Assembly: GCF_017834145.1 (NCBI RefSeq)
Contig: NZ_JAFIDA010000001.1
Coordinates: forward strand, 434,001 to 498,000
DNA length: 64,000 nucleotides
From: Leucobacter exalbidus
GTDB lineage: Bacteria > Actinomycetota > Actinomycetes > Actinomycetales > Microbacteriaceae
Direction: 5' to 3'
Shown here piece after piece: positions 6,054 through 16,804 of the stretch (position 1 is the stretch's first letter; the number at the start of each line of letters is the position of its first letter). The notes beneath the pieces were generated by a model. It saw only the letters and a list, made by a program, of their open reading frames with translations. It made no database searches and was not told where the DNA came from. Position numbers and translations under genes: made by a program.

Positions 6054-6917
6054 ATGGAGTCCACACACACCCTCGCCGACCTGCGCGCGGCCGCCCAGCG
6101 GCTGTGGCCCGTCGAGACCGCAGAATCATGGGATCGGGTCGGGCTCGTCTCGGGCCGTGACGACGCGCCGCTCACGCGGGTGCTGCTCGCGGTCGACGCG
6201 GTCGCATCGACCGTCGATGAGGCGATCGAGTGGGGGGCGAGCGCGCTTCTCACCCATCACCCGCTGCTGTTGCGCGGCATTCACACCCTCGCCGAAGACA
6301 CCGCAAAGGGTGCGCTGCTGGCGCGCATGATCCGCGCCGATTGCGCGCTCTATGCCGCGCACACGAACGCTGATCAGCCCGCAGCTGGCGTCTCTGACGT
6401 GATTGCGAAACGTCTGGGGCTCCAGCACGCAACGCCGATCGTGCCCCACGCCTCTGACGCCGCGATCGGCATCGGGCGCGTGGGCGACCTTGCGCGCCCC
6501 GAGCGCCTCGCCGACTTCGCTGAGCGGGTCGCTGCGATACTGCCCGCCACGGTGAGCGGGGTGCGGGTGGCCGGGGATCCGGATCGCGCCGTGCAGCGCA
6601 TCGCCCTGCTCGGCGGCGCGGGCGATAGTCTGCTCGACCACCCGGCCGTGCGCGGCGCAGATGTCTACCTCACGAGCGATCTGCGGCACCACCCGGCGCA
6701 GGAGTCAATCGAGCTGACACTCGCCACCGGTGGCCCCGCGCTCATCGACGTGGCGCACTGGGCCAGTGAGTCACTGTGGCTCGACGGCGCGGCCGAGATA
6801 CTCGCCGAGATGCTGCCCGGAGTAGAGGTGCGCGTGAGCCAAAAGCGCACCGACCCGTGGGACTTCGCCGTGGGCTCTGCCGCAGGTGCTGCCAGCGCCG
6901 CCGCCAAGGGCCGGTAG
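6054..6917 (+). CDS. Nif3-like dinuclear metal-centre protein
   Basis: A 287-residue Nif3/YbgI-family protein. Metal-ligand motifs are present: LTHHPLLLRGI near residue 65, AHTNADQP near residue 102, and the C-terminal DVAHWASE near residue 230. The family forms a hexameric ring with a di-metal site; its cellular reaction is still debated (GTP cyclohydrolase I type 2-like). The ATG is 3 bp after the metI stop and is followed closely by the DUF164 gene, so the Met-transport transcript may continue into it. This Nif3-DUF164 pairing is common in actinobacteria. Confidence 0.9.
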   Translation: MESTHTLADLRAAAQRLWPVETAESWDRVGLVSGRDDAPLTRVLLAVDAVASTVDEAIEWGASALLTHHPLLLRGIHTLAEDTAKGALLARMIRADCALYAAHTNADQPAAGVSDVIAKRLGLQHATPIVPHASDAAIGIGRVGDLARPERLADFAERVAAILPATVSGVRVAGDPDRAVQRIALLGGAGDSLLDHPAVRGADVYLTSDLRHHPAQESIELTLATGGPALIDVAHWASESLWLDGAAEILAEMLPGVEVRVSQKRTDPWDFAVGSAAGAASAAAKGR

Positions 6918-6927
6918 GATGGGAGAC

Positions 6928-7656
6928 ATGAAGGCTAGCCCCCGCCAGCAGCGATTGCTGCTCGACCTGCAGGACCTCGACACAACGATCGCGCAGCAGC
7001 AGCGCAAACGAAAGACGCTTTCGCAGCGCGCCGCACTCGCGGGGCTGTCGGGGGAGTTGACCGCCGCGAAGCAGAGCTTCATGGCTGCCCAGCGCGACCT
7101 CGATACGCACTCGGCTGAGTTCGACCGCATCCAGTCGGATGTTGTGCTCGTTTCTCAGCGCGTGAAGCGCGACGAAGAGAAGCTCGCTTCGAGCAGCTCA
7201 GCGAAGGAAGCGCAGGCGCTGACGGCCGAGCTCGAGCAGCTCGCCGCCCGCACCGAAAAGCTTGAAGAGAAGCAGTTCGCCATCATGGAGCTGCAGGATG
7301 CCGCCAACCAGGCATTCGCTGCCGCAGAGGCGGCGCTCGCGGGCGTCGACGGGCGACGCGCAGAGTTTCAGGCCGAACTCGACAAGGCCGAGGCCGCGAT
7401 TGATCGCGAATTGGCGATCAACGTGAAGGAACGCCTCGGGCTGTCGGCCGAGCTGCAGCGCGACGTCTACGACCTCTACGAGTCGCTGCGTAAGCGCATC
7501 GGCATCGGCGCGGCGCGACTGCGCGGCAACGTTTCTGAGGCCAGCAACATGACCCTCGCGCCCGCAGAAATCAGCGACATTCGTCAGGCTCCCATCGACG
7601 AGCTCGTGTTCTGCCCGGGCACCGGCGCGATCCTCGTGCGCGTCGACGAAGACTAG
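6928..7656 (+). CDS. DUF164-family coiled-coil protein with degenerate zinc ribbon
   Basis: A 242-residue protein of the C4-type zinc-ribbon/DUF164 family. Residues 1-165 are almost continuous coiled coil (many A, E, K, Q and L). The C-terminus carries the family sequence APIDELVFCPGTGAILVR, but where relatives have two CxxC pairs only one cysteine remains, so a zinc ribbon cannot form. I chose the ATG at 6928, preceded by TAGGATGGGAG; an ATG at 6919 is the alternative. Function unknown. Transcription probably comes from nif3, and the -10 box of rnpB begins only 8 bp after the stop. Confidence 0.88.
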   Translation: MKASPRQQRLLLDLQDLDTTIAQQQRKRKTLSQRAALAGLSGELTAAKQSFMAAQRDLDTHSAEFDRIQSDVVLVSQRVKRDEEKLASSSSAKEAQALTAELEQLAARTEKLEEKQFAIMELQDAANQAFAAAEAALAGVDGRRAEFQAELDKAEAAIDRELAINVKERLGLSAELQRDVYDLYESLRKRIGIGAARLRGNVSEASNMTLAPAEISDIRQAPIDELVFCPGTGAILVRVDED

Positions 7657-7663
7657 AACCGGG

Positions 7664-7669
7664 TATACT
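7664..7669 (+). promoter_or_regulatory. -10 box of the rnpB promoter
   Basis: TATACT at 7664-7669, eight bases upstream of the 5' end of the RNase P RNA, with a weak -35 candidate (around GTCGAC, 7642-7647) inside the end of the DUF164 gene. The distance from the -10 box to the mature 5' end is about right for direct initiation. Confidence 0.7.
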
Positions 7670-7677
7670 CAGTTCAC

Positions 7678-8060
7678 GGAATGGGTTGGTGAGGCGGCCG
7701 CGTCGCGGCACGTAAGTGTTCGCGCCGAGGAACGTCCGGGCTCCACAGGGGAGAATGGTGGGTAACACCCACCCGGGGTAACCCGCGAGAAAGTGCAACA
7801 GAGAGTAGACCGCCTGCCGCAGCTTGCTGCGGTCGGTAAGGCTGAAAGGGTGGTGTAAGAGACCACCGGCGCACGTGGTAACACGAGCGGCCAGGTAAAC
7901 CTCGTTCGGAGCAAGACCAGACAGAGGATGATGACGCGCCCCGCCGAGTCCTCGGGTAGGTTGCTAGAGAGTGCCGGTAACGGTAATCCGAGATAGATGA
8001 CCGCCACCCTGAGCGTTAAACCTTGGGGGACAGAACCCGGCGTATGATCTGGCCCATTCC
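7678..8060 (+). ncRNA. rnpB: RNase P RNA, bacterial class A
   Basis: The ~383-nt catalytic RNA that matures tRNA 5' ends. Its termini pair (GGAATGGGT at 7678 with GGCCCATTCC at 8051-8060). Conserved core elements are present: GAGGAACGTCCGGGCTCC near 7727-7744, the AGAGAGTAGACCGCC region near 7800, CAGAGGATGATGACG near 7923, and the 3' universal segment ending in ACAGAACCCGGCGTA. A -10 box lies immediately upstream and an intrinsic terminator immediately downstream. Confidence 0.97.
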
Positions 8061-8063
8061 ACC

Positions 8064-8108
8064 AAGCCCCCAACATCGGCATGAATATGCTGAAGTTGGG
8101 GGCTTTTT
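8064..8108 (+). terminator. rnpB terminator
   Basis: 11-bp stem AAGCCCCCAAC / GTTGGGGGCTT around a 20-nt loop that itself folds, followed by a T-run (TTTTT). Confidence 0.9.
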
Positions 8109-8128
8109 GTGTGCCAAGCGAGAGGTCT

Positions 8129-8998
8129 TTACTCCGAGACGGTGAGCAGTTCAAAACCGTTCTCGCGCACCACGATGGTGTGCTCGAACTGGGCGGTGAT
8201 GCTCTTATCGCTCGTGGTGACCGTCCACTCGTCTGCCCACTGGCGCCACTGGTGTGTGCCGAGTGTGAGCATCGGCTCAACCGTGAACACCATGCCCGGC
8301 ACGATGATGTCGCCGTAGGTGGGGGCCGAGTCGTAGTGGGGGATGATGAGCCCCGAGTGGAACGATGACCCGACACCGTGCCCGGTGAAGTCGCGCACCA
8401 CGCCATAGCCGAAACGCTTTGCGTAGGTTTCGATGACGCGGCCGATCACGTTCACGGCGCGGCCGGGCTTGGCCGCCTTGATGCCGCGCATCATGGCCTC
8501 GTGGGTGCGCTCGATCAACAGGTCGACCTCTTCAGACACCTGCCCCACCCGGTAGGTGCGGTTCGTGTCGCCGTGCATACCGTCGAGGTATGCGGTGACA
8601 TCGACGTTCACGATGTCGCCCTCGCGCAGCACCGTGTCATCGGGGATGCCGTGGCAGATGACCTCGTTGACCGAGGTGCACGATGAGGCGCGGTAGCCGC
8701 GGTACCCCAGCGTCGAGGGGTAGGCGCCGTGTGACACGACGTACTCGTGTGCCACGCGATCGAGCTCGGCGGTGGTGACGCCGGGGCGCACCGCTTCACC
8801 GACGGCATCGAGCGCGCCCGAGGCGATGCGGCCAGCGGCGCGAATGCGGGCTACTTCTTCATCGTTGTAGGTGTTGTCGCCGGTGTACGGCGGGGGAGTT
8901 TTGAGCCCTACATAGGGTGGGCGAATGATCTCCTGTGGAACCGCACGTACGGGCGGAAGAGAACCTGGAATTAAATGTCCGTGTGCATCGAAGGGCAT
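8129..8998 (-). CDS. map: Methionine aminopeptidase type I
   Basis: A 289-residue type I MetAP that removes the initiator methionine from new proteins. Metal ligands are visible in NVDVTAYLDGMHGD, TGHGVGSSFH, FTVEPML and FEHTIVV. The ~40-residue proline-rich N-terminal extension (SLPPVRAVP, RPPYVG) matches the actinobacterial MetAP1c form, where it resembles an SH3-binding linker to the ribosome. It is convergent with rnpB, and its promoter must lie in the 49-bp gap shared with the divergent small gene at 9048. Confidence 0.95.
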   Translation of the reverse strand: MPFDAHGHLIPGSLPPVRAVPQEIIRPPYVGLKTPPPYTGDNTYNDEEVARIRAAGRIASGALDAVGEAVRPGVTTAELDRVAHEYVVSHGAYPSTLGYRGYRASSCTSVNEVICHGIPDDTVLREGDIVNVDVTAYLDGMHGDTNRTYRVGQVSEEVDLLIERTHEAMMRGIKAAKPGRAVNVIGRVIETYAKRFGYGVVRDFTGHGVGSSFHSGLIIPHYDSAPTYGDIIVPGMVFTVEPMLTLGTHQWRQWADEWTVTTSDKSITAQFEHTIVVRENGFELLTVSE

Positions 8999-9047
8999 GG
9001 CTCTAGTCTAGGAGTGTGCGCAAGGTGCGCCAAAGGAGGCGATGGCT

Positions 9048-9251
9048 ATGAGTGGCAAAGACTGGGGTATCGACGATCCCCAAGAGACTTACTGGTTCAA
9101 TACCCGCACCAATCAGGTTGAGCGCGGGCCGCAGTCGTTTGGCGTTGACCGTATCGGGCCGTACAAGACCCCCGAAGAGGCCGCCCACGGCCAAGAAGTC
9201 ATTAACGAGCGCGCCCGGCTGTGGCGCGAAGAAGACGCAGAAAATGACTAA
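9048..9251 (+). CDS. SPOR-like small protein
   Basis: A 67-residue hydrophilic protein (MSGKDWGIDD...) containing YWFNTRTNQVERGPQ and GPYKTPEEA, the pattern of the small SPOR-annotated proteins found between map and glnA2 in Microbacteriaceae. No signal peptide or membrane segment, so a classical cell-wall SPOR role is doubtful. AAAGGAGG at 9032-9039 is 8 bases from the ATG at 9048 and only 2 from the ATG at 9042, so I prefer the second. Function unknown. Confidence 0.78.
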   Translation: MSGKDWGIDDPQETYWFNTRTNQVERGPQSFGVDRIGPYKTPEEAAHGQEVINERARLWREEDAEND

Positions 9252-9361
9252 CACTCCGTAAACGAAACATGCCCGACATGCTCGCCCGATAAGGTGGGCA
9301 GGTGGAAGGTCGCGGCGGGCGGCCACCAGCAGCCAACAACCCATGGCAGGACGGAGTAGGC

Positions 9362-15485: not shown

Positions 15486-16066
15486 ATGCCGAACGTGGAG
15501 GTTCGACATTGCTAAGCCTACCCTACGCGGGACGCAAGGAATGACCACATGGTGTCCATGTGCGCCCCGCCCATATTCGCACTAACCAGTCGACGCGTTG
15601 CACGCATCACGAAGAGCACGTGAACTCGGGGCAAGGAAAGCATCGACGGTGCTGAACTTCACTTCAGACTTTGGGCAAGCATGACTAAGATCCCACTCGG
15701 ACCCCGCACATAAGTGAGTCTGTATTGGTCTTCGTAGGTTGCGATGCCACGAAGCGGGTAGCAATCATGTTTTGCGGCAGCGTCTAGCGCGGCCTCGAGA
15801 CACTCCACTGAGAACGCAACACGGTGCATTCCGATCGCGTTGGGAAGTGTCGGGTCAGTCTCAACCGCCATCGGAAAAATGTATTCGAACAGTTCAACGA
15901 AATCCTGACCGCCCGGGGTTTGCAGAAGAGCAATCTTGGCGTGGTTTCCGTCAAACCCCACCGCAGTGTCAGCCCACTCACCACTGATCGTATCCCTGCC
16001 CACAACGGTGAGACCGAGATCAACGAAGAATGCGATCGCATCCTCAAGATCACTTACTGCGATCCC

Positions 16067-16120
16067 TGTTTAGCAGAGGCTTCGGAGAGCGCCTGTGTAT
16101 CGATCCGATAGCGCGGGCGT
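16067..16120 (+). repeat. Left terminal inverted repeat of the IS-derived element
   Basis: Begins TGTTTAG; shares the blocks GGAGAGCGC, TGTGT, CGA and CCGATAGC with the right repeat (reverse complement of 16617-16668), with one single-base gap. Confidence 0.85.
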
Positions 16121-16207
16121 AACGAGACGAAAGCAGTCGACCCCGCCCGCCCGTGCTCTAGCCGGGCCAGGCGACGACCTTCACCTCTCGACCGCGTTCT
16201 GCCCCCA

Positions 16208-16510
16208 CTAGATGAAGCAGTACTGGCATGCACGACACTGCCGATCCGGTCTCCTAGTATTTCTGCTGACACTGCGGGCATCTGACGTGTGGCAGCAGCC
16301 TCGGTACGCTGCGCAGAGGAGGACCCTCAACCTGACCCCAACTTTTTCGAGCTCTCCATGTAGTTGGTGCCAGCCGGGCTGTTCGTAGATACTCCCGCGG
16401 TTCCTTCTGTCGGGGAAGAGCCGTTCGTGGACTTCTGACTCGGTCATATCTGCCACGGTCTCCCATATGAGCTGCTCACGGGCGGCGCGCGCTTTGATCT
16501 TATGTACCAT
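16208..16510 (-). pseudogene. IstA transposase fragment (IS21 family)
   Basis: A 100-codon frame starting MVHKIKA, the usual start of one IstA subgroup, joined directly to WETVADMTESEVHERLFP and then GWHQLHGELEKVGV, which are IstA sequences normally about 40 residues further on. The HTH between them is deleted, and after residue ~65 the similarity fades; the DDE catalytic core is absent. A dead remnant inside the 602-bp element. Confidence 0.7.
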
Positions 16511-16616
16511 CAGAGTTGCTTCTTCTGTCGTCCGGTAACAGCGGACGGCAGAAGGAGCCTACGAGCGTGGCCCCCCAAAGACCTCCATATTGACTCGGGC
16601 GCTATTGGATACCTAC

Positions 16617-16668
16617 ACGCCCGCTATCGGGTCGTCACACAAGCGCTCTCCAATGCACCGACTAAACA
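16617..16668 (-). repeat. Right terminal inverted repeat of the IS-derived element
   Basis: Read on the minus strand it begins TGTTTAGTCGGTGC and continues GGAGAGCGCTTGTGT. A further partial copy of the CGCTAT block occurs just inside (around 16600), in keeping with the multiple terminal repeats of IS21 elements. Confidence 0.82.
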
Positions 16669-16804
16669 ATCCCTACGTTTTCTAACTTGATATTCATTCC
16701 AGGAATCGTACGCCTGCACTCCCTATAACACCGCAATTATTCACATGAAATGGGTGAATGACCGTGTCCCAATCGTGCGACGAACGCGAGCGGGATCCTC
16801 CTCG

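Follow-up and report, generated by a model that had tools for sequence, protein, structure and literature searches.

The interrupted VOC gene and the 602-bp element

We analyzed a stretch of 64,000 nucleotides from Leucobacter exalbidus (the window), in which a gene of the VOC/glyoxalase superfamily is interrupted by a TG...CA non-autonomous IS21-type element of 602 bp. The features of the locus are given below in window positions. Group A denotes the IS21 group of a full element in the same genome with matching ends, and group B denotes a second IS21 group, of which scraps occur in the interior.

15659–16066, minus strand: VOC gene, 3' part (longest ORF left, 15659–16003); Pfam PF00903 Glyoxalase
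16062–16066: left target duplication, ATCCC
16067–16668: non-autonomous IS21-type element, 602 bp, TG...CA, with inverted arms; second copy at G000:C1:2918640–2919241
16067–16191, plus strand: left part, matching the istB-side end of the full IS21 with 82% identity over 125 columns and reaching into the last istB bases
16078–16121, plus strand: left end with two 22-bp repeats (16078–16099 and 16100–16121); a weaker third at 16122–16143
16186–16230, plus strand: group-B istB scrap, inverted relative to the IstA remnant
16318–16510, minus strand: group-B IstA remnant with a 31-codon deletion near its start and without the catalytic core
16519–16557, minus strand: decayed group-B istA-leader hairpin, with pairing at 14 of 16 positions on the istA strand
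16597–16668, minus strand: right part, matching the istA-side end of the full IS21 with 94% identity over 72 bp
16614–16657, minus strand: right end with two 22-bp repeats (16636–16657 and 16614–16635); a third at 16592–16613
16669–16673: right target duplication, ATCCC
16669–16697, minus strand: VOC gene, 5' part (ATG begins at 16697)

The arms of the element (16067–16121 and 16614–16668) are 76% complementary without gaps, and their BLAST alignment has 42 identical columns out of 54 with two gap positions (E 2e-5). In both ends, 22-bp repeats follow a tip of 11 bp; two of the repeats are clear and the third is weaker. The borders, the inverted ends of 52–54 bp, the TG/CA termini and the ATCCC on both sides are all as an earlier note on this DNA had described them. 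Members of the IS21 family characteristically have TG/CA tips and inverted ends that contain two or more internal direct repeats, and their target duplications measure approximately 4–8 bp; those of the element are 5 bp in the window copy and 6 bp in the second copy. Functional istA and istB genes also belong to the definition of the family. Because the element contains only remnants of both, it is filed as an IS21 derivative and not as an IS21 insertion sequence. Its remnant ORF matched no Pfam or NCBIfam family at E 0.001. The features that define a MITE are also present: the element is short (602 bp) and without a transposase gene, its ends are common to a full element in the same genome, and it occurs in two copies, each with its own target duplication.

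Disruption of the VOC gene

The insertion point lies in codon 10 of the VOC gene. The frame that starts at the ATG enters the element and stops after 11 residues, and the 114-residue remainder matches the VOC/glyoxalase-superfamily profile PF00903 with 22.0 bits (cut-off 20.6). Joining the flanks with a single ATCCC yields one open frame of 143 residues starting with MNIKLENV, which reproduces the continuous product that the earlier note had obtained by removing the element and one ATCCC. When the 114-residue remainder was used as a query (E 0.001), matches were found in 27 of the 54 genus genomes, including its own. Among the other 53 genomes, 14 have homologs with 66–74% identity and 12 with 32–46%, and no match was found at this threshold in the remaining 27. 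The close orthologs are uninterrupted across the insertion point in 14 of 14 cases and agree with the rejoined MNIKLENVGIAVSDLEDAIAFF. The comparison with relatives proposed in the earlier note is consistent with the rejoined product.

At the 72 columns invariant in the 14 orthologs, the remainder has eight changes, whereas the same count for each ortholog gives 0–4 changes at 64–68 columns. The excess fits relaxed constraint, although a longer species branch may explain part of it. A truncated protein translated from an internal GTG start (ORF 15659–16003) might still work, in which case the gene would be altered and not lost; the remainder is indeed free of stops and frameshifts, but it does not have the conserved N-terminal 29 residues and it carries the excess changes at invariant columns, and we regard continued function as unlikely. 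We infer that the VOC function was lost through the insertion. A 13-nucleotide stretch of the VOC gene that recurs, inverted, in the interior of the element was rejected as a chance match, as the same letters are present in the second copy, outside that gene.

A full IS21 element with matching ends

The genome contains a single full IS21 element (G000:C1:297804–300451, 2,648 bp), in which the frames of IstA (548 aa) and IstB (314 aa) are both open. Its IstA is assigned to NF033546 transpos_IS21 (E 3.1e-63) and its IstB to PF01695 (E 8.4e-46); the IstB score on the NCBIfam equivalog model is 178.6, which is under the cut-off of 200. The motifs of the full element fit the DDE and Walker residues. 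In IstA, VDWAG (from residue 143), VPDNA (from residue 208), and GHVEA (from residue 255) are read as a putative DDE triad by comparison with IS5376 IstA, in which the triad consists of D124, D187, and E233 (PMC10122671).

Across the 3.18 Mb of the genome, an end pattern built from the ends of the 602-bp element and the full IS21 (up to three mismatches) had six matches, which together make up both ends of three elements; the reversed control had none. Since the pattern was derived from these very ends, this result shows their inverted pairing and that no others exist. The genome search for the same ends suggested in the earlier note therefore yielded one further copy and the full IS21 element. 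That note had named two outcomes that would count against its reading, intact VOC homologs at odds with the rejoined product and ends without counterpart in other elements; neither occurred.

The full element has no exact flanking duplication in this genome, its flanks being unmatched. Its relatives have 5-bp duplications in all four copies in Leucobacter salsicius and 6-bp duplications in five of six distinct copies in Ca. Leucobacter sulfamidivorax, the flanks of the sixth (L067) being unmatched. Both sizes, 5 bp and 6 bp, are those seen at the two copies of the 602-bp element. L067 and another Ca. Leucobacter sulfamidivorax copy, L077, have an identical 12-base left flank and different right flanks, with a matching duplication in L077 only, a pattern that reflects inter-copy recombination or misassembly.

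Chimeric interior of the element

The IstA remnant lies in a mechanical ORF (16208–16510), and a weak gapped match tail extends to 16293. Against a group-B IstA (L009:4272–5849), the remnant ORF scored 183.5 (maximum of 100 shuffles, 56.0), whereas against the IstA of the full element it scored 35.5 (shuffle maximum, 46.5); these two IstA proteins are 32% identical. By its position, the 31-codon gap would correspond to the first HTH region, and the remnant ends short of the catalytic core. Upstream of it lies a group-B leader with 88% identity over 81 bp to an element in another genome (G016). The istB scrap scored 55 against L056 (maximum of 34.4 in 200 shuffles), 33 against L054 (shuffle maximum, 26), and 43 against L055 (shuffle maximum, 31). 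The middle of the element (16231–16318, approximately 88 bp) had no match above chance among 13 IS loci (best score 23.8, random maximum 25.0). The terminal parts had no match at E 1 or better in four group-B loci of 7–16 kb (L054–L057), and the two group-B copies in genome G356 diverge from each other at what appears to be a different end sequence.

Judged by these similarities, the element is chimeric, with group-A ends around rearranged group-B scraps. The earlier note was right that the IstA remnant has no HTH and no catalytic core; its reading is amended here in that the remnant belongs to a different group from the ends. A plausible route would be the insertion of a group-B IS21 into a group-A IS21, followed by deletion and inversion to give the chimeric core; an IS21 nested in another IS21 does occur in this genome, where the group-B element is split between its leader hairpin and the start of istA. 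Alternatively, the parent could have been an unsampled full IS21 in which group-A ends and group-B genes were already joined and which was later rearranged. Such a parent would explain the mixture without an insertion of one IS into another, but the lack of matches between L054–L057 and the terminal parts and the apparently different end of the G356 copies argue against it, and the inverted istB scrap would still require a rearrangement; we consider it possible but rather doubtful. Simple internal deletion of the resident full IS21 would agree with the match of both ends and with the extension of the left match into the 3' end of istB, but this origin is refuted by the group-B matches of the remnant, the leader, and the inverted istB scrap, and is highly improbable. 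Since the remnant comes from a different IS21 group from the ends, we favor a chimeric origin over an internal deletion of the resident element.

Second copy and distribution

The genome (3,181,803 bp, one contig) contains one further copy of the element, in which 596 of 602 letters are identical and the first base is C instead of T. GCAGGG is present on both of its flanks, corresponding to a 6-bp duplication, and two copies of one mosaic are accordingly found at unrelated sites, flanked by ATCCC and GCAGGG. A dead relic doubled by segmental duplication would agree with there being only two copies that are 1% diverged, but the identity ends at the element borders and each copy has its own duplication, which makes this explanation almost untenable. 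As to an empty site of the second copy, none of the other 53 genus genomes matched the neighboring GDSL-type hydrolase at E 1e-40. The second copy (L008:1641–2242) is located 170 bp from a dioxygenase-like VOC-superfamily gene (L008:2413–3813, minus strand; PF00903, E 1.3e-23); the copy is not inside that gene, and the proximity is probably a coincidence.

A full-length match was found only in its own genome among the 54 genus genomes and the 398 genomes of the family sample, in which up to two candidates per genome were scored. Partial matches occur in five other genus genomes and in at least six other genomes of the family. At E 1e-5, none of 72,556 plasmid records matched. When the named genome contigs were scanned for exact occurrences of a degenerate end pattern, 12 stretches were obtained, all of which match the full element and two of which are cut by contig ends: six in Ca. 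Leucobacter sulfamidivorax, four in Leucobacter salsicius, and one each in a Microbacterium MAG and a Verrucomicrobiia MAG. The short, low-coverage contig binned as Verrucomicrobiia (L074, JAUIGD010000520.1) carries a Leucobacter-type IS21 and is either misbinned or transferred.

A hairpin in the istA leader of group B

Nine distinct group-B elements have a stem of approximately 16–18 bp, the 3' arm of which consists of the purine-rich, Shine-Dalgarno-like letters before istA. The hairpins are located as follows.

L054:3448–3488, L055:3851–3889, L056:6578–6616
L057:3277–3315, L061:1530–1567, L089:1454–1491
L091:3070–3107, L092:3068–3105, L095:1456–1493

The set is partly biased, as six of the nine were first found by DNA similarity to the 602-bp element; L091, L092, and L095 were found only through IstA, and L093, which begins at IstA residue 79, was left out. 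In L056, which is this genome's own group-B IS21, the hairpin and the istA start codon are now parted by a different IS21 (approximately 6617–9263), an instance of an IS21 nested in an IS21.

Across the outer 15 positions of the nine hairpins, 133 of 135 cells pair and seven positions have changed on both sides; pairing reached at most 128 cells in 1,000 shuffles (mean 121.6), although relatedness can inflate such counts. Three leaders fold 5.1–5.8 standard deviations below their shuffles, and the leaders of the window copy and the full element fold 2.6 and 2.1 standard deviations below theirs, with 4 and 6 of 200 shuffles, respectively, folding as well. The covarying hairpin appears to bury the Shine-Dalgarno-like sequence of istA in the nine group-B leaders examined. 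Compared with the other strand, the istA strand has more pairing positions in five of nine elements, an equal number in three, and fewer in one (L095). The hairpin of the window copy also has fewer pairs on the istA strand (14 versus 16). In L054 and L056, the folding energy slightly favors the other strand. It is the position at the Shine-Dalgarno sequence, and not a strand bias, that makes it likely that the hairpin acts as RNA. By inspection, hairpins are also present near the istA start in the group-A leaders L058, L059, and L070 and in L009 (approximately 4124). A literature search found no report on an istA-leader hairpin. The translation of transposases is reportedly controlled by a 5'-untranslated structure in ISPpu9 and by Hfq at the ribosome-binding site in IS10.

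Discussion

The 602-bp element is very probably a non-autonomous, MITE-like derivative of the IS21 family that was mobilized in trans. The earlier note had proposed a MITE-like IS21 passenger, and this proposal is supported by the structure of the element, its two copies with their target duplications, the broken VOC frame opposite uninterrupted orthologs in 14 of 53 genomes, and a full IS21 element in which the ends match and the frames are open. The points against it are that there are only two copies, that the second starts with C, that the full element has no exact flanking duplication, and that its IstB scores below the NCBIfam equivalog cut-off.

Movement in trans, which is the most likely explanation, could have proceeded as follows. 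Each end of 52–54 bp keeps two 22-bp repeats predicted to bind the transposase and a terminal CA. The most likely source of IstA and IstB, acting in trans, would be the genome's only full IS21 or a close relative of it. The two proteins would then pair the ends, cut at the CA, and join them to a target in the VOC gene with a stagger of 5 bp; after repair, ATCCC would be duplicated and the gene broken in codon 10. Because the left end is only 82% identical to that of the resident IS21, the helper may instead have been a different, unseen element.

The IstA of IS5376 is reported to require a pair of complete direct repeats at each end and to produce 5-bp duplications (PMC10122671). The element resembles IS21-family members such as IS5376 in its CA tips, in the two repeats at either end, in an end length of approximately 55 bp, and in the 5-bp target spacing (PMC10122671, PMC11208146), whereas it has no workable istA or istB. 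MITEAba12 with ISAba12 (PMC6382973), MITEPye1 of the IS1182 type (PMC11578231), and MITEPsy1 with ISPsy2 of the IS5 family (PMC3189936) are likewise short and transposase-free, share their ends with a resident IS, have target duplications, and can break genes. MITEAba12 and MITEPsy1 measure 113 bp and 100 bp, compared with 602 bp here; unlike these three MITEs, the element has ends of the IS21 type, a family in which IstA and IstB are both used, and its interior holds recognizable pieces of a second IS21 group. A literature search, mostly outside subscription journals, found no description of an IS21-type MITE. Tn3-derived TIMEs reportedly produce mosaic non-autonomous transposons. The element is similarly a mosaic that would be moved by the transposase of another element, but it has IS21 ends and not Tn3 ends. 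It is a clear-cut example of an already familiar type of mobile DNA.

On balance, we favor the combined reading in which a chimeric IS21 mini-transposon was moved in nature by IstA and IstB from elsewhere, and in which a whole IS21 group guards istA from read-through translation by a hairpin that buries its Shine-Dalgarno sequence. The element offers a natural case in which a two-protein system, IstA and the AAA+ protein IstB, apparently serves a non-autonomous element, with the passenger and its likely helper together in a single-contig genome and the host genes intact in relatives. If this is true, ends of approximately 55 bp would suffice for the movement of IS21 in trans in vivo. The istA-leader hairpin, for its part, offers a point of control that can be tested in a widespread family of transposons.
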